From positions 1 to 25,647 of the forward strand of contig JAFGFO010000399.1 in assembly GCA_016931085.1 (NCBI GenBank): a stretch of 25,647 nucleotides of DNA, given 5' to 3'. Of this stretch, positions 13,634 to 25,445 are shown piece after piece; positions within the stretch are counted from its first letter, which is position 1, and the number at the start of each line of letters is the position of its first letter. Under the pieces are notes generated by a model. It was not told the origin of the DNA. It saw nothing but the letters and a program-made list of their open reading frames with translations, and made no database searches. This DNA comes from Thermoflexales bacterium (GTDB lineage Bacteria; Chloroflexota; Anaerolineae; Fen-1058). Both the position numbers and the translations under genes were made by a program.

Positions 13634-13903
13634 TGGTCGTGCACCCTTTGTCGAACCTGGTCGCCCGACTTGCTCCAGCCAGTTAGCTCCAGCCCGGCGC
13701 TCCTGCGTCACCCAAGAGTTATTCCTAACCGTTGCTGCCTTCCGGCCCTGGCGGGGTTGGGGAACCTCCTGCCGCGCAGGACCAGACCTTCAACGCCACT
13801 TGTCTGTGGTAGGCTCGAACGTCCAGGCCCTCGAAAGGGGCTTCCGCCCCGCTAAGCAGATTTCGGGTTCAGGGCACTGCTAGCTCCCCGCCTAGCACGA
13901 CCA
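13634..13903 (-). ncRNA. ffs: Signal recognition particle RNA, large bacterial type
   Basis: The minus strand carries the S-domain core CCAGGGCCGGAAGGCAGCAA, the near-invariant Ffh-binding helix 8 with its GGAAG tetraloop flanked by AGCA. The 5' part reads GTGCTAGGCGGGGAGCTAGC, followed by GTGCCCTGAACCCG, which I recognise as the Alu domain of the large (~270-nt) SRP RNAs of Bacillus-like and Chloroflexota bacteria. The two ends pair perfectly: TGGTCGTGC at 13895-13903 with GCACGACCA at 13634-13642 (9 bp), which sets the boundaries at about 270 nt. A consensus promoter ends six bases upstream. No U-tract terminator is obvious at the 3' end. The RNA pairs with Ffh to target nascent membrane proteins; ffh is not in this window. 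Confidence 0.9.
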
Positions 13904-13937: not shown

Positions 13938-13956
13938 GCCCGGGACAAAAAAATAG

Positions 13957-14043
13957 CGGAGAGGGTGGGATTCGAACCCACGGAGCATTTCTGCTCACGC
14001 GCTCTCCAGGCGCGCGCGTTAGGCCAGACTACGCTACCTCTCC
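13957..14043 (-). tRNA. tRNA-Ser, anticodon GGA
   Basis: The acceptor stem GGAGAGG/CCTCTCC pairs perfectly. The anticodon loop CTGGAGA gives GGA (reads UCC/UCU). A long class II variable arm (GAGCA-GAAA-TGCTC) and a T arm GTGGG-TTCGAAT-CCCAC are present. The discriminator base is G, as usual for tRNA-Ser, and no CCA is encoded. A T7 run just after the 3' end may terminate the transcript. The anticodon is not UCA, so this is not the selenocysteine tRNA. Confidence 0.95.
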
Positions 14044-15093: not shown

Positions 15094-15581
15094 GCGAACA
15101 AAGCTTTTGCATCAACCACCCGAGCGAGCCCACCAACCTGCGCTGTAACAAGTGCAATGCCCCGATTTGCCCGCGCTGCGCGGTGAGCACGCCGGTGGGC
15201 TATCGCTGCAAAAATTGCGTCAGGAGCCAGCAGACCACCTTTTACACGAGCACGTGGTACGATTATCCCCTGGCCGCCGCGGCGAGCCTGGCCATCGGCG
15301 GCCTGGCCCAGGTGATCCTGTTTTTCGTCCCCTTCCTGTTGCTGGTCATCTTTGCCGGCGTCCTGGTCGGCGGGATCGTGGCCGAGGCGGTGCGCCTGGT
15401 CAACGGCAAGCGGCGCGGGCAGTACACGTGGTTGGTGGTGGGCGCCTGCCTGGTGGCCTGCTCTGTGCCCGGCTTGCTGTGGGGGCTGTTGAGCATGGAC
15501 CTGGTGAGGGTACTGGTCGGCGGGGTATACCTGGTGCTGGCGGTGGGTGCCGCCAACGCTCGCCTGCGAATAGGAAAATAG
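15090..15581 (+). CDS. B-box-like zinc-finger membrane protein
   Basis: This 163-residue protein starts at GTG 15090, overlapping the nadK stop by four bases, with AAGGAG eight bases upstream. The N-terminal 45 residues hold a treble-clef or B-box-like zinc-binding array, FCINHPSEPTNLRCNKCNAP followed by CPRCAVSTPVGYRCKNC. About four transmembrane segments follow (for example VILFFVPFLLLVIFAGVLVG and YTWLVVGACLVACSVPGLLW). Such zinc-ribbon plus membrane proteins are frequent in Chloroflexota and Actinobacteria and are of unknown role; the N-terminus probably binds a protein partner at the cytoplasmic face. It sits between nadK and recN in a tight operon. Confidence 0.8.
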   Translation: MSEQSFCINHPSEPTNLRCNKCNAPICPRCAVSTPVGYRCKNCVRSQQTTFYTSTWYDYPLAAAASLAIGGLAQVILFFVPFLLLVIFAGVLVGGIVAEAVRLVNGKRRGQYTWLVVGACLVACSVPGLLWGLLSMDLVRVLVGGVYLVLAVGAANARLRIGK

Positions 15582-17356: not shown

Positions 17357-19290
17357 AACACAAGCTGATCAACCGCCGCACGGGCTGTAGCCTCTGCCTG
17401 GCCCTCCTGGCCCTCGCGCTCATCGTGCTGGCCTATAAAGTGGGCCGGGTGGGCAGCCTGGGCCTGTCGCTGCTGGGACGCGCTGAGCGCATGCTGGCCA
17501 TCCAGCCGGCGCAACTGACGCTCGAGAGTTTGGGGCCGATAGCCGGCGAGGTGCACGCCACTCGCTCCGAATTACACGCCCTCCGTTCAGAACTCGGCCC
17601 CGTGCTCGCCATCGCCCCCTATCTTGGCTGGCTGCCGCGTTACGGCGCGGACGTCGAGGCTGCCCCGGCCCTGATGGACTGCGCCATCGAGCTGGTCGAC
17701 GCGGGCGACCTGGTCCTGACCGGCTTGCAGCCCGCCCTGGCCGAGCTGCCGGGCGACAAAATGTCCATCCAGGCCGCCGTCCAGATCATGCAAGCATTGC
17801 AGCCGGCCCTCGAGCAGGCACGGCCTCACCTGGACCAGGCGGCGCAGGCCAGGGCGCGCATTCGCCGCCCCCTTTCTCCACGCCTGGCAAGCCTGTTAGC
17901 TCAAGCCGACAAGGCCCTGCCGGCGACCGTGATTGCCGCCGACGCGGCCAGCCTGGCCCCTGAGCTGCTGGGCGCCGACGGGCCACGCACGTACCTGGTT
18001 TTGGCTCAGAACAGCGACGAGCTGCGCCCCACCGGCGGCTTTATCAGCAGCGTCGGGCGGGTGGTGGTCGAGAACGGTCAAATCGTCTCGCAGGGCTTTG
18101 AAGACAGCTACGCCGTAGACGACTACAGCTTCTCCTATCCCGACGCACCGGCCGAGCTGCAAGCGTATATGGGCTCGGAGATATGGGTGTTTAGAGACTC
18201 GAACTGGTCGCCGGACTTTCCCACCAGCGCCGCCAAGGCGATCGAGTTGTACCAGCTCGGCCGGCCTGGCCCCATCGACGGCGTCATCGCCATCAATCTG
18301 CGTGCCATCCCGACCTTGTTTGAGGGCTTGGGGCCTGTCAGCGTCCCCGGCTTTAGCCAGGCCGTCACCAGCCAAAGCGTCATTGCCGTCACACGCCAGG
18401 CGCTGCTGTCCGAGCCGAACGATCGCTCGGGCGATTGGTGGACCCACCGCAAGGATTTCATGGGATCGTTGGCCGGGGCCGTGATGGGCCGTGTCCAGGC
18501 CGGCCTGACGGCCTCGCAGGCCTCGCGCCTGGCATCGGCGGCCCTGGAAACGCTCGAACGGCGCGACATGCTGATCTATCTCACGTCACCCCAAGCGCAG
18601 CGCGTATTGGCGCAGCGCAAATGGGACGGCGCGTTGGTGCGCAGCACGGGCGACTCGCTCATGGTGGTTGATGCGAACATGGGATTCAACAAAGTCAATC
18701 CCAACATTGACGAGCGACTGGAATACACCGTTCAGCTCGACCAAGCCGGCAGCGGCCGGGCCAGCCTGGTGGCCCGGCACAGCAGTCGCGTCCGCCCCCA
18801 AGCGGACTGCGATCCCACGCCACGCTACGACAAGACCTACGAGGGCATGATGAACCGCTGTTACTGGGACATGCTGCGCGTATATGCGCCGGGCGGCAGT
18901 TCTCTCATCACCGCCACGCTCCAAGCGCCCGCGCCGCTGGTGGGCAAGCGCTCTAGCGACGGGCAACCCACGGCAGCCCAAGAGCTGGGGTACAGCGTAT
19001 TTGGATCGTTCTTCGTGCTCGACGGAGGCGCCAGCCAGGTGACACGTTTTGAGTACAGCTTGCCACAGCTCGTCGAGGAAGAGGCTGGGCTGCGGGTCTA
19101 CAGCCTGTACGTCCAGCGGCAGCCGGCGACGAGTGACCTGCCACTCGATATCGCCGTCGTGCTGCCGGAGGGCGCGCAGTTGGTCAAGACCGACCCGCCG
19201 GCGCGGGCATCCGGCCATATGGTGGAGTGGTCACTATCCCTGTCCGCCGACCGGCAGGTGCGCGCCTGGTATCGCCTGCCGCAAAAATAG
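17353..19290 (+). CDS. DUF4012 family exported protein
   Basis: This 645-residue protein starts at GTG 17353 inside the recN stop. It has one N-terminal transmembrane helix (CSLCLALLALALIVLAYKVG, about 12-31) and a large extracytoplasmic part. The stretch TYLVLAQNSDELRPTGGFIS is the hallmark of DUF4012, followed by the typical SNWSPDFPTSAAKAIELYQL and IDGVIAINLRAIPTLFEGLG. The C-terminal ~170 residues are beta-rich. Family members in Chloroflexota and Actinobacteria are often near polysaccharide or envelope genes and share features with LytR-CpsA-Psr proteins; the biochemical role is not known to me. Co-translation with recN looks like genome compaction rather than shared function. Confidence 0.82.
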   Translation: MKHKLINRRTGCSLCLALLALALIVLAYKVGRVGSLGLSLLGRAERMLAIQPAQLTLESLGPIAGEVHATRSELHALRSELGPVLAIAPYLGWLPRYGADVEAAPALMDCAIELVDAGDLVLTGLQPALAELPGDKMSIQAAVQIMQALQPALEQARPHLDQAAQARARIRRPLSPRLASLLAQADKALPATVIAADAASLAPELLGADGPRTYLVLAQNSDELRPTGGFISSVGRVVVENGQIVSQGFEDSYAVDDYSFSYPDAPAELQAYMGSEIWVFRDSNWSPDFPTSAAKAIELYQLGRPGPIDGVIAINLRAIPTLFEGLGPVSVPGFSQAVTSQSVIAVTRQALLSEPNDRSGDWWTHRKDFMGSLAGAVMGRVQAGLTASQASRLASAALETLERRDMLIYLTSPQAQRVLAQRKWDGALVRSTGDSLMVVDANMGFNKVNPNIDERLEYTVQLDQAGSGRASLVARHSSRVRPQADCDPTPRYDKTYEGMMNRCYWDMLRVYAPGGSSLITATLQAPAPLVGKRSSDGQPTAAQELGYSVFGSFFVLDGGASQVTRFEYSLPQLVEEEAGLRVYSLYVQRQPATSDLPLDIAVVLPEGAQLVKTDPPARASGHMVEWSLSLSADRQVRAWYRLPQK

Positions 19291-19326
19291 ATCACGAATG
19301 ACACGAATAGTCGAATTCCACGAATG
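19291..19326. repeat. CACGAAT word cluster
   Basis: ATCACGAATGACACGAATAG and TTCCACGAATG repeat the word CACGAAT three times right after the DUF4012 stop. This is another low-complexity word of the type scattered through the window. Nothing else is recognised in 19327-19368. Confidence 0.45.
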
Positions 19327-19368
19327 CCTTTTGGCAAGCGGCCCGCTTCTGAGTGAACGGCGCGTTGG

Positions 19369-19397
19369 TTGACTTAACGGCCAAACGGTTATATACT
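19369..19397 (+). promoter_or_regulatory. Promoter of the selenoprotein candidate
   Basis: TTGACT (19369-19374), an exact 17-nt spacer and TATACT (19392-19397) give a near-consensus housekeeping promoter. Transcription would start at about 19404, so the GGGCAGAC palindrome at 19404-19433 would form the 5' end of the message, with the ribosome-binding site AGAAGGAG directly after it. Confidence 0.65.
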
Positions 19398-19403
19398 CCT
19401 AGC

Positions 19404-19433
19404 CCCAGGGCAGACACAGGGGTCTGCCCCTAC
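19404..19433. repeat. GGGCAGAC-type palindromic repeat, copy in 5' leader
   Basis: GGGCAGAC (19408-19415), loop ACAGGG and GTCTGCCC (19422-19429) form an 8-bp stem. The 30 bases 19404-19433 are identical to 22762-22791. Here the hairpin lies between promoter and ribosome-binding site, so it may stabilise or regulate the message. Confidence 0.6.
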
Positions 19434-19445
19434 AGAAGGAGAACT

Positions 19446-20726
19446 ATGCACAGAAACGCGTTCTATTTGATTGGCCTGAGCCTGGCGTTGGCCGCCTGCG
19501 GGGGTGGGACCGCGACGCCGGCGCCTACGGCCACGTCTCAAGCGGCCGCCACCAGCACGGCACCCCCCACCGCTACGGTGGCTCAAGTGGCGACGTCCGC
19601 GCTGCCCAGCCAGCCTTCGTCGTTCAAGCTCAACCCGGCGGCGGCCTGCCAGCCGGCCGGCAAGCCGGCCTCCGTGCCGGGGCTCTCGCCGGTGGGGGCA
19701 GACGACTGGATCAAGGGTTCACCCAGCGCCCCGGTGACGCTGATGGAATACGCCGACTACCAGTGACCGGGCTGCTCAGGGATTGCGCCCCTGCTCGTGA
19801 GTCTGGTAGACTCACATAAAGATACACTCAAGGTTGTTTATCGACATTTTCCGCTGTCGTTTCACGAACACGCGCAAATCACGGCCGAAGCGTCTGAGGC
19901 GGCCGGCGCCCAGGGCAAGTTCTGGGAGATGAACGAGCTGCTGTACGCCAGGCAGAGCGAATGGGCTGGCAAGACGGTGGACGAAATGCCCAAGGTCTTG
20001 GAAAGCTATGCCAAGGAGATAGGGCTGGATACGGCCCGCTTTGCAAAGGAGCTGGCCGAGGGCACATACAAGGCCAACGTGGAAGCGGATTTGCAAGAAT
20101 CGCTGGAAGTGGGGCTGCCGGGCACGCCGACCTTCTTCCTCGACGGGGTCCATCTCCCTTCCGACTACCTGGGCATGCTGGATAGCCTCATACCCTGGTT
20201 TGCATGGCTCAACAGCAGCCCGATGCAGTTTTCCGCCCCGGACGAGGTGATCGACCCGGCCAAAACGTACACCGCCATCTTCAAGCTGGACAAAGGTGAC
20301 ATCGTCGTCGAGATGTATGCCAGCCAGGCGCCCAACACCGTCAACAGCTTTGTCTTCCTGGCACGCCAAGGCTATTTCGACGGCGTGACCTTCCACCGCG
20401 TGCTGAAGGACTTTGTGGCCCAGGCCGGCGACCCCAGCGGCACCGGCATGGGCAGCCCGGGCTATCAATGCAACGACGAGATCGTGCCTGGGCTGAAATT
20501 CGACGGCCCAGGCGTGGTTGCCATGGCCAATTCAGGCGAGAACACCAACGGCAGCCAGTTCTTTATCACCTACGCGGCGGCGCCGCAGTTGGACGGCGGC
20601 TTTACGATCTTTGGACGCGTGATCGCCGGCATGGACGTGGCGCAGAACATCACCGCGCGCGACCCGGACCAGAACCCCAGCACGCCGGGGGACGCGATCA
20701 GGACCGTCGTCATCGAAGAAAAATAG
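19446..20726 (+). CDS. Selenocysteine-containing lipoprotein: DsbA-like thiol oxidoreductase fused to cyclophilin-type peptidyl-prolyl isomerase
   Basis: This is read as one 426-residue protein with an in-frame TGA (19764-19766) decoded as selenocysteine at residue 107. It starts at ATG 19446, preceded by AGAAGGAG. Residues 1-18 are a lipoprotein signal with lipobox LAAC (Cys18), followed by an Ala/Thr/Pro-rich spacer. The DsbA-like thioredoxin domain (about 90-255) has VTLMEYADYQ-U-PGC (U107, C110), YRHFPLSFHEHA, an alpha insertion and the cis-Pro loop GTPTFFLDG (P228). The cyclophilin domain (about 275-426) has FHRVLKDFVAQAGDP, NSGENTNGSQFFI and GGFTIFGRVIAGMDVAQNI, including the catalytic Arg (318) and QFF. 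The product would sit outside the membrane, reshaping disulfides and prolines. Without recoding, the first part ends just before its active site and the rest has no signal. A pseudogene or sequencing error is the alternative; the SECIS-like hairpin argues against it. Confidence 0.82.
19797..19815 (+). promoter_or_regulatory. Putative bacterial SECIS hairpin
   Basis: GTGAGTC (19797-19803), loop TGGTA (19804-19808) and GACTCAC (19809-19815) form a perfect 7-bp stem; the loop T-A could add an eighth pair, leaving a GGU triloop. The loop starts 37 nt after the TGA. Bacterial SECIS elements sit in the reading frame just after UGA and carry a G within the first two loop bases (GGU in E. coli fdhF); the spacing is at the long end of what I recall as allowed (about 16-37 nt). 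Confidence 0.65.
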
Positions 20727-24234: not shown

Positions 24235-24283
24235 AGTTTCAGGTTTCAGGTCTCAGGTTTTACGCATTACGTTTTACGTATCA
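24235..24283. repeat. Word array between the RNase D-like and beta-CASP genes
   Basis: 24235-24258 is identical to 11977-12000 upstream of rsmA. 24257-24283 (TTTTACGCATTACGTTTTACG and flank) runs into the 3' end of the RNase D-like gene and shares CGTAAAACGTAA with 2376-2387. The array therefore bridges two genes and encodes the last residues of one. Confidence 0.6.
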
Positions 24284-25445
24284 CGCCCAGCACTTGCGGC
24301 CCGTAAGTTTTGCGCCGCCAAGGTCCCAGTCCCTCGATGTCTTCAAGCTCAGCCAGCGTTGTGGGGCAACGCTGAGCGATGTCCATCAGGGTCGCGTTGG
24401 ACATGATGACGTCCGGCTCGACGCCGCGTTGGTGGGCCAGGTCATTGCGCCAGGCGCGCAAGGTCTCGTAGCGCTCCAGGATATGCTCATCGGGCCGTGG
24501 TGAATAGGGCGGGCGGGGGATGCTGGCTTCCTGTCCGCGCGCCAACGCCTCCAGGATACCCGGCCCATAGCGCTTGACGTGCAGCGACTTGAGGCCATCA
24601 ATGCTGAACAGCTCCTGCAAGCAGTGAGGCTGGGCCTGGGCCAGGTTGACGAGGGTCTTGTCGCTAAAGATGTAAAAGACCGGCTGGTCGCGCCGGCTGG
24701 CCTCGTGTTCCCGGTAGGCGTGCAACTCGCGGACGAGGGCCTGCTCGCGCCCGGTCAGGTCCCACACCCCCTTGACACGCCAAAAACTGTGAGGGTCGGG
24801 CACATCCGGCGGCGCCAGCTCGGCTTGCTGGTCAAAGATCTCGCGTGCTTCTTCCAGGCGGCCGGCGGCTTGCAGCGCGGCCAGTTGCATGGCGCGGATG
24901 TCCAGCAAAAAGTGGGTATCCAGGCGGGCATACGCCAAGGCCCCAGGCACCAGGGGGCGCTTGCCCCAATTGTAGCGCTGCCAGCGCTTGTTCAGGCTGA
25001 CACCGAAGCGTTCCTCGAGGATAGAGGCCAGCCCCAGGCGCGGCCAGCCCAGCACGCGCGCGGCCCACATCGTGTCGAACAAGTTGCGAAATTCAAAGCC
25101 CTCGTCGCGCTTGAGACACAAGACATCGTACTCGGCGGCGTGAAAGACTTTTTCCACGCGCGGGTCGGCAAACAAGCTGCCCAAGGGGGCCATGTCCAGG
25201 CCGCTGAGCGGGTCGAGCAAATAGTCGCAGGTGGGGATTGAAAACTGCACCAGGCAGACCTTTTCGCGGTAGACGTACATGCTGTCTGACTCGGTGTCTA
25301 CCGCCACGGCCGGCTCGTCCAGCAGGCGAGCGAGCATCTCGTCCAGGCTAGCCTGGCGTGTAATCAAGGTGGGGGGAGCTAAAGGCTCAACTCGTTTCGT
25401 CACGCTGGATTGCATCATCTTTGTCTCGTAAACGCCTGTCACCAT
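24267..25445 (-). CDS. rnd: RNase D-like 3'-5' exoribonuclease with HRDC domains
   Basis: RNase D trims 3' ends of tRNA precursors and other small RNAs. This 392-residue protein carries a DEDDy exonuclease domain: AVAVDTESDSMYVY (D50, E52), VFHAAEYDVLCL (D107) and ALAYARLDTHFLLDI (Y172, D176). Two HRDC-type helical domains follow, at about 225-300 (FYIFSDKTLVNLAQAQP, ISIDGL-like 'FSIDGLKSLHVKRYGPGI') and about 318-390 (DVIMSNATLMDIAQRCPTTL, EDIEGLGPWRRKTYG). The size and order match the RNase D family. Its promoter places the transcription start at the ATG itself, so the message looks leaderless. The last three residues and stop come from the CGTAAAACGTAA word. The beta-CASP RNase gene follows and is probably co-transcribed. 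Confidence 0.92.
   Translation of the reverse strand: MVTGVYETKMMQSSVTKRVEPLAPPTLITRQASLDEMLARLLDEPAVAVDTESDSMYVYREKVCLVQFSIPTCDYLLDPLSGLDMAPLGSLFADPRVEKVFHAAEYDVLCLKRDEGFEFRNLFDTMWAARVLGWPRLGLASILEERFGVSLNKRWQRYNWGKRPLVPGALAYARLDTHFLLDIRAMQLAALQAAGRLEEAREIFDQQAELAPPDVPDPHSFWRVKGVWDLTGREQALVRELHAYREHEASRRDQPVFYIFSDKTLVNLAQAQPHCLQELFSIDGLKSLHVKRYGPGILEALARGQEASIPRPPYSPRPDEHILERYETLRAWRNDLAHQRGVEPDVIMSNATLMDIAQRCPTTLAELEDIEGLGPWRRKTYGPQVLGVIRKT

Follow-up and report, generated by a model that had tools for sequence, protein, structure and literature searches.

What does the TGA codon at positions 19764-19766 stand for? In the window, by which we mean the whole 25,647-nucleotide stretch of DNA from a Thermoflexales bacterium analysed here, a single frame on the forward strand extends from the ATG at 19446 to the TAG at 20724-20726, and the initial annotation had described it as one gene broken by this TGA alone. 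The translation bears this out: 19446-20726 gives 426 residues and a final TAG when TGA is read as U, and U107 is the sole difference from a table 11 translation. Codon 107 lies within EYADYQ-TGA-PGC, that is, at the first Cys position of a DsbA-type CxxC (UPGC), flanked by intact DsbA and cyclophilin domains, again as annotated. With a probability of about 0.9 we read the gene as encoding a selenoprotein, in which a selenocysteine (Sec) inserted at residue 107 by means of SelB and a downstream hairpin would belong to an exported, anchored UxxC foldase joined to a prolyl isomerase.

The complete reading frame comprises a putative signal peptide with lipobox, a linker, a DsbA-like domain and a cyclophilin. 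From the sequence we read AAGGAG (19436-19441, +), just 5' of the ATG, as a probable Shine-Dalgarno-like element. The putative signal peptide (19446-19499, +) ends in a lipobox-like LAAC at residues 15-18, which was assigned by eye and makes Cys18 a putative lipidation site. Over the Pfam gathering scores, Thioredoxin_4 (PF13462) matches residues 89-236 (71.6 bits, 1.1e-19), DSBA (PF01323) residues 98-236 (42.9 bits) and Pro_isomerase (PF00160) residues 280-419 (140.8 bits, 5.7e-41), which places the DsbA-like thioredoxin-fold domain at 19710-20153 (+) and the cyclophilin-type peptidyl-prolyl isomerase domain at 20283-20702 (+). Both domains are confident in the AlphaFold model of the window protein (mean pLDDT 83.5; DsbA-like domain mostly >90), while residues 1-65 stay below 50. 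The best Foldseek rows are solved cyclophilins (best 4.1e-17), with no DsbA chain named among the best 50; by sequence, the DsbA part is matched by solved DsbA and BdbD chains (best 1.9e-13). As expected of a DsbA fold, U-x-x-C sits at the start of a helix (residues 108-123 in the model, beginning right after Sec107), with Cys110 (19773-19775, +) as the resolving residue, and a Thr227-Pro228 loop (20124-20129, +) is present, the cis geometry of which is predicted. Pro108, Cys110 and Thr227-Pro228 are kept in 57 out of 57 distinct TGA sequences, window included, and the Thr-Pro pair is invariant in the alignment of relatives. Arg318 and Gln326, which we take to be the catalytic Arg and Gln of the cyclophilin, each occur in 49 of the 57; together with the Pro_isomerase domain they allow a peptidyl-prolyl isomerase activity to be predicted.

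From conservation and RNA structure, we propose that SelB binds a hairpin at 19797-19815 and brings Sec-tRNA(UCA) to the TGA at 19764; Sec insertion would then yield a single 426-residue chain. Judging from the lipobox, this chain would be exported and lipid-anchored at Cys18. Outside the membrane, Sec107 would attack and Cys110 resolve, as the UPGC motif and the Thr-cisPro loop suggest, and the fold and its conserved residues point to a thioredoxin-fold domain that makes or exchanges disulfides in exported proteins, and likewise to a C-terminal cyclophilin that isomerises prolyl bonds. Two folding activities would thus be united in one anchored chain, and the product is probably a UxxC oxidoreductase that is exported, held by a lipid anchor and joined to a prolyl isomerase. 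The redox direction, however, is not fixed by the UPGC pair, and the DsbA half of the selenoprotein might instead be a reductase or a peroxide-handling enzyme rather than a foldase that forms or exchanges disulfides. We regard this as possible but unlikely: by sequence, the DsbA half is closest to solved structures of DsbA and disulfide-formation proteins, and the fused partner belongs to a folding enzyme family. Such an enzyme would be a variant of our best explanation, compatible with its Sec part, and the odds given to the individual readings add up to more than one.

For the selenocysteine itself, we compared codon 107 among relatives. One genome per species was scanned and 80 loci were kept, which were not chosen for stops. 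Position 107 is covered in 64 of these: 33 have a Cys codon, 19 another sense codon and 12 a stop, which is TGA in every case; none of the 64 aligned frames contains a further stop. The extended collection of 151 sequences contains 135 covering codon 107 and 125 distinct ones (window included; duplicates judged on the first 80 bases). Here we find 57 TGA, 49 Cys and 19 other sense codons, proportions that are no frequencies since the set was enriched by choice (L111-L139 were fetched as TGA-marked, L140-L150 as without stop). TGA or Cys thus occupies the position in 106 of the 125, and TAA or TAG in none. This is the alignment of an in-frame UGA with the Cys of homologues by which bacterial selenoproteins are recognised, and it gives the answer that the initial annotation had sought from close relatives. 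Nor do the orthologues show varied stops, which would have spoken against Sec: the stop at 107 is always TGA, and an additional one occurs in the best aligned stretch of 0 of the 135 sequences. A read-through search in 396 genomes of the class of one relative gave matches in 386; among the matches listed, at least 55 of the 396 genomes hold the TGA form with one internal stop, always TGA, and in all 55 it falls on aligned position 107.

The protein databases hold the gene in truncated form. P0002 (309 aa), the form in which the window protein is listed there, begins with GTG 19797, 3' of the TGA and within the stem of the predicted hairpin, and covers 19797-20726 (+); that an automatic caller would split the gene had been foreseen. 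Among the best 120 of 7998 scored candidates of a protein search, the eight nearest relatives (61-72% identity, with a minimum of 60% set for both identity and query coverage) are likewise short, each starting 3' of the TGA equivalent, and this truncation suggests that they, too, may stem from TGA genes. The most direct hint comes from P0003, P0006 and P0054, which start close behind the TGA equivalent; P0004, P0019, P0032, P0046 and P0055 start well downstream and may owe this to something else, e.g., the end of a contig. Relatives of full length, at about 50% identity, read EYADFQCPGC or similar.

A bacterial SECIS (bSECIS) element, according to the figure legend (Fig 2) of a 2026 review (PMC13188914), has an apical loop of 3-9 nt with G in the first two positions, a stem of 4-16 bp, a distance of 16-37 nt from the UGA and an MFE of at most -7.5 kcal/mol. 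In the window, a predicted hairpin of 8 bp, GTGAGTCT-GGT-AGACTCAC (19797-19815, +; -9.6 kcal/mol), fits this model with loop UGGUA and 7 bp outside the loop; its spacing of 37 is at the edge of the range and counts the closing U-A as loop, while from GGU alone it is 38. Scripted here, the published model is matched by 46 of the 57 TGA genes, with 11 failing it, against 2 of 68 genes without TGA (2/49 Cys, 0/19 other), so the SECIS prediction proposed as a check on the initial annotation turned out in its favour. A looser hairpin rule of our own is satisfied in 51/57 TGA versus 3/49 Cys and 1/19 other genes (4/68; Fisher p 2e-23), our hairpin rules having been set after the first sequences had been looked at. 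Under the looser rule, synonymous-codon shuffles reach a mean of 4.1/57 and a maximum of 11/57 in 2000 runs. For the window alone, a stem of at least 8 bp arises in 0.8% of the synonymous shuffles, and the RNA case therefore rests on the family. The 19797-19815 hairpin has a z of -3.47 against shuffles, for a stretch picked after being seen; neither the 77-nt region (z -0.54) nor a 57-nt stretch (z -1.16) is unusually stable compared with shuffles. The RNA signal sits in the hairpin and its covariation, not in the whole 77-nt stretch. Rfam at a lax threshold returned no SECIS family for 19200-20200 and one chance-like miRNA match.

Two layouts of the hairpin can be distinguished. Type A, to which 40 sequences belong by the three loop letters, has the distal GGU-loop hairpin found in the window; type B, the remaining 17, has a proximal CGUGYU-loop hairpin at spacing 23, with the exception of L056, which is without this hairpin, and of L098, L114, L119 and L123, which show shorter or shifted stems or loop variants. 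The window also has a proximal hairpin, CAGGG-loop-CCCTG (19777-19793, +; -6.7 kcal/mol), which is without G at the loop start; stems occur there in most type A relatives, and it may be accessory or incidental. The idea that the SECIS type follows the genome was dropped because both occur in G309, which carries two TGA copies of the gene, L099 of type A and L128 of type B. In the type A stem, five of the eight pairs are changed on both sides. Compensatory changes amount to 40 cells in type A, compared to at most 20 in 1000 arm swaps, to 19 (at most 13 in arm swaps) in type B, and to 50 (at most 26) over all 57 TGA sequences. Moreover, 92% of the type A cells are paired, against 27-59% in slid versions.

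How far hairpin and Sec change together was followed on a quick maximum-likelihood tree of 125 rows from which the residue 107 column had been removed. One group with SH-aLRT 99 unites 54 of the 57 Sec rows with 18 Cys rows. The Sec label changes 13 times on the best tree, as opposed to 41.5 in shuffles, and at least 8 times by supported branches; on this tree, Sec and Cys have thus replaced each other several times, and either direction is possible. Cys genes nested among Sec genes are devoid of the hairpin (e.g., L002 by L096, L141/L142 by L118, L143/L146 by L015/L130). Across supported branches, 8 independent pairs of rows have Sec in one member only; averaged over 200 pairings, the hairpin differs the same way in 7.2 of them, the opposite way in 0.0 and not at all in 0.8, and the pair test has a median p of 0.016 (range 0.008-0.125). 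Taken together, the codon 107 pattern, the fit to the bSECIS model, the compensatory stem changes and the co-change of hairpin and Sec uphold the reading of the TGA as selenocysteine.

A separate observation from this tree concerns the 19 rows with another sense codon, which encode Ser, Thr, Ala, Asp or Glu at 107. Fourteen of them form one supported group (L018, L020, L033-L035, L037, L040, L041, L044, L045, L047-L049, L063), in which the first active-site Cys is replaced by Ser, Thr, Ala or Glu and the following Pro is often absent. Apparently, this lineage gave up the redox pair and kept the fold.

The unremarkable folding of the 77-nt region would suit a TGA that is a true stop, left by a recent pseudogenization or a sequencing error. 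This is strongly disfavoured, since 56 distinct relatives besides the window share TGA at the same place, never TAA or TAG, in aligned frames otherwise free of stops, and dN is below dS on both flanks of the TGA in 8 close pairs of TGA genes (60 codons 5', 130 codons 3'; the upstream comparison is gapless, and upstream dN is inflated in more distant pairs for that reason).

The selenocysteine reading also presupposes the machinery for it, which is predicted for the source genome and was searched in the genomes of relatives. Of the 12 genomes that gave the first TGA loci, 10 have selA over the cut-off and 2 a fragment; the same search found it in 9 of 10 non-TGA genomes, with none in G021. All seven near relatives, six with TGA (G196, G346, G162, G140, G097, G352) and one with Cys (G302), have selA over the cut-off. 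For selB, 314 of the 396 class genomes have a match over the cut-off, as do 2 of the 14 control genomes. Judged from E-values (estimated cut-off near 3e-72), 45 of the 55 TGA genomes have it; the three best candidates were scored per genome, and a missing selB is therefore weak evidence. Seven of the 10 TGA genomes that are without a full selB match have selA over the cut-off. The other three, G326, G329 and G335, have neither, and each has selD with an in-frame TGA.

tRNA-Sec scores at least 59 bits in 10 of the 12 first TGA genomes and about 47 bits in G003 and G005, where the matches may really be tRNA-Ser; the model also exceeds its own cut-off in 5 of the 14 control genomes. The anticodon tca was found in L155 and L158-L162. 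G326 has such a tRNA-Sec, and ARAGORN reports one in the best matches from G097, G302, G140, G352 and G267. ARAGORN assigns the best matches from G346, G196 and G162 to tRNA-Ser, and no match reaches the cut-off in G329 and G335. In 6 of 8 genomes searched, selD was found (G326, G329, G335, G196, G267, G140); in G346 it is fragmentary, and no match in G162 exceeds the cut-off. As a side observation, each of these six selD genes carries an in-frame TGA of its own, as expected of Sec-type SelD. With these gaps, selA, selB, selD and a UCA tRNA-Sec are present in most of the relatives' genomes searched for each. We considered telling Sec genomes from Cys genomes by selB and gave this up, given its occurrence in 314 of 396; machinery so common in the class supports the Sec reading and does not discriminate.

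Since Cys is the commonest residue at 107 in relatives without TGA, one might suppose that the TGA is simply read as Cys, Trp or some other standard amino acid, without any selenium. We hold this to be very improbable in view of the Sec machinery in the relatives and of the downstream hairpin, which accompanies the TGA and seldom occurs in relatives with Cys. Moreover, TGA is a normal stop here, as the annotation had stated. Counting the present one, 17 ORFs of the window were taken as genes; TGA ends 7 of them, TAA 5 and TAG 5, and 85 codons are TGG. The 7 terminations led us to reject an alternative genetic code. That translation stops at the TGA and begins afresh at GTG 19797, giving a cyclophilin with no signal and an incomplete DsbA fold, the form that the automatic caller supplies in P0002, is hardly credible: this product would have neither the signal nor the U/C residue, its thioredoxin fold would be missing the first strands, no Shine-Dalgarno-like stretch is seen by eye before the GTG, the motif is kept on both sides of the TGA (UPxC in 57/57), and the Cys relatives are one unbroken chain.

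Is a Sec-containing DsbA-cyclophilin fusion new? The initial annotation knew of no description of the arrangement, and this stands in part. Sec in a DsbA-like lipoprotein is already known: the review mentioned above (PMC13188914) lists DsbG-like (NF041057) and DsbA-like UxxC selenoproteins. We found no description of the form fused to cyclophilin, of how widely it occurs in the class, or of its two SECIS layouts. Titles and abstracts under open licence describe no such fusion among the matches listed, the main text of PMC13188914 contains none of the terms Chloroflex, cyclophilin, peptidyl or prolyl, and searching PMC12013277 by terms gave no match either. A table in PMC1794560 gives 3 selenoproteins in 3 families for Chloroflexi. 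'Form 1' of the DsbA-like selenoproteins (PF01323, NIP15863.1), compared by its table entry in PMC13188914, shares the DsbA domain with UxxC, and that entry names no cyclophilin domain. The Cys-type DsbA-cyclophilin proteins of Anaerolineae (e.g., P0033, P0041), named 'peptidylprolyl isomerase' in one source, have the same two-domain layout at about 50% identity; they differ in having Cys for Sec, and just the 2 of 49 distinct Cys genes noted above fit the SECIS model.

The closest known family is NF041057 in NCBIfam, the Rcas_1661 family thioredoxin-like (seleno)lipoprotein, which PMC13188914 gives as the domain of the 'DsbG-like' UxxC selenoproteins. Like the window protein, it is a lipoprotein by name with a DsbA/DsbG-like domain and Sec at the first CxxC position. 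Aligned over its residues 10-235, the window protein scores 100.7 bits against a cut-off of 190 and is by that test a relative and not a member; it also differs in carrying the cyclophilin domain. In all four members fetched (L151-L154), the stop aligns with window residue 107, and the two on the + strand (L152, L154) have a proximal CGTGC-loop hairpin in contrast to the distal GGU hairpin of the window. In 60 class genomes, the NF041057 model has matches in 54 and exceeds the cut-off in 9; many of the matches listed contain one TGA.

Several class genomes show a further peculiarity, namely two or three adjacent NF041057-like (DsbA-type) matches per contig (G053:C6:50099-51736, G040:C134:52151-53932, G033:C24:20064-21797, G034:C33:44696-46069, G051:C147:93035-95002), some of them within a single long open frame, the longest of 922 aa. 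An in-frame TGA stands in one or two of the neighbouring matches in G033, G034 and G051; possibly, these are proteins built of tandem DsbA domains, not all of which carry Sec.

Beyond the single locus, we see an even chance that the gene represents a widespread, undescribed architecture of the Anaerolineae: a dual foldase, lipid-anchored on the outer side of the membrane, in which a Sec disulfide enzyme and a prolyl isomerase in one chain would act on the same client, and in which the two SECIS layouts (distal GGU at spacing 37, proximal CGUGYU at spacing 23) would have been exchanged or lost along with repeated Sec/Cys replacement. The bacterial class of the relatives is abundant and mostly uncultured. 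What gene callers cut in two would be a selenoprotein architecture whose TGA form occurs in at least 55 of the 396 sampled class genomes and, if the reading is true, selenium has a part in the folding of exported proteins in this class. Within this one enzyme, Sec and Cys have been exchanged several times and the RNA signal has changed along with them, a natural experiment that could allow a direct test of the cost and benefit of Sec.

As to the surroundings in the window, the genes at 15152, 17353 and 20746 (of six neighbours) are absent at 1e-20 from 79 loci of relatives longer than 5 kb, a set that left out the nearest relatives, whose flanks are shorter. A scan of viral_contigs gave no relative of the window gene. 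ARAGORN reports a tRNA-Phe with anticodon aaa (24629-24707, +) inside a long ORF on the opposite strand (24267-25445); it is probably a false call, since Rfam at the gathering threshold does not list it. A bacterial large SRP RNA lies at 13637-13900 (-; 161.9 bits) and adjoins a tRNA-Ser(GGA) at 13956-14043 (-).
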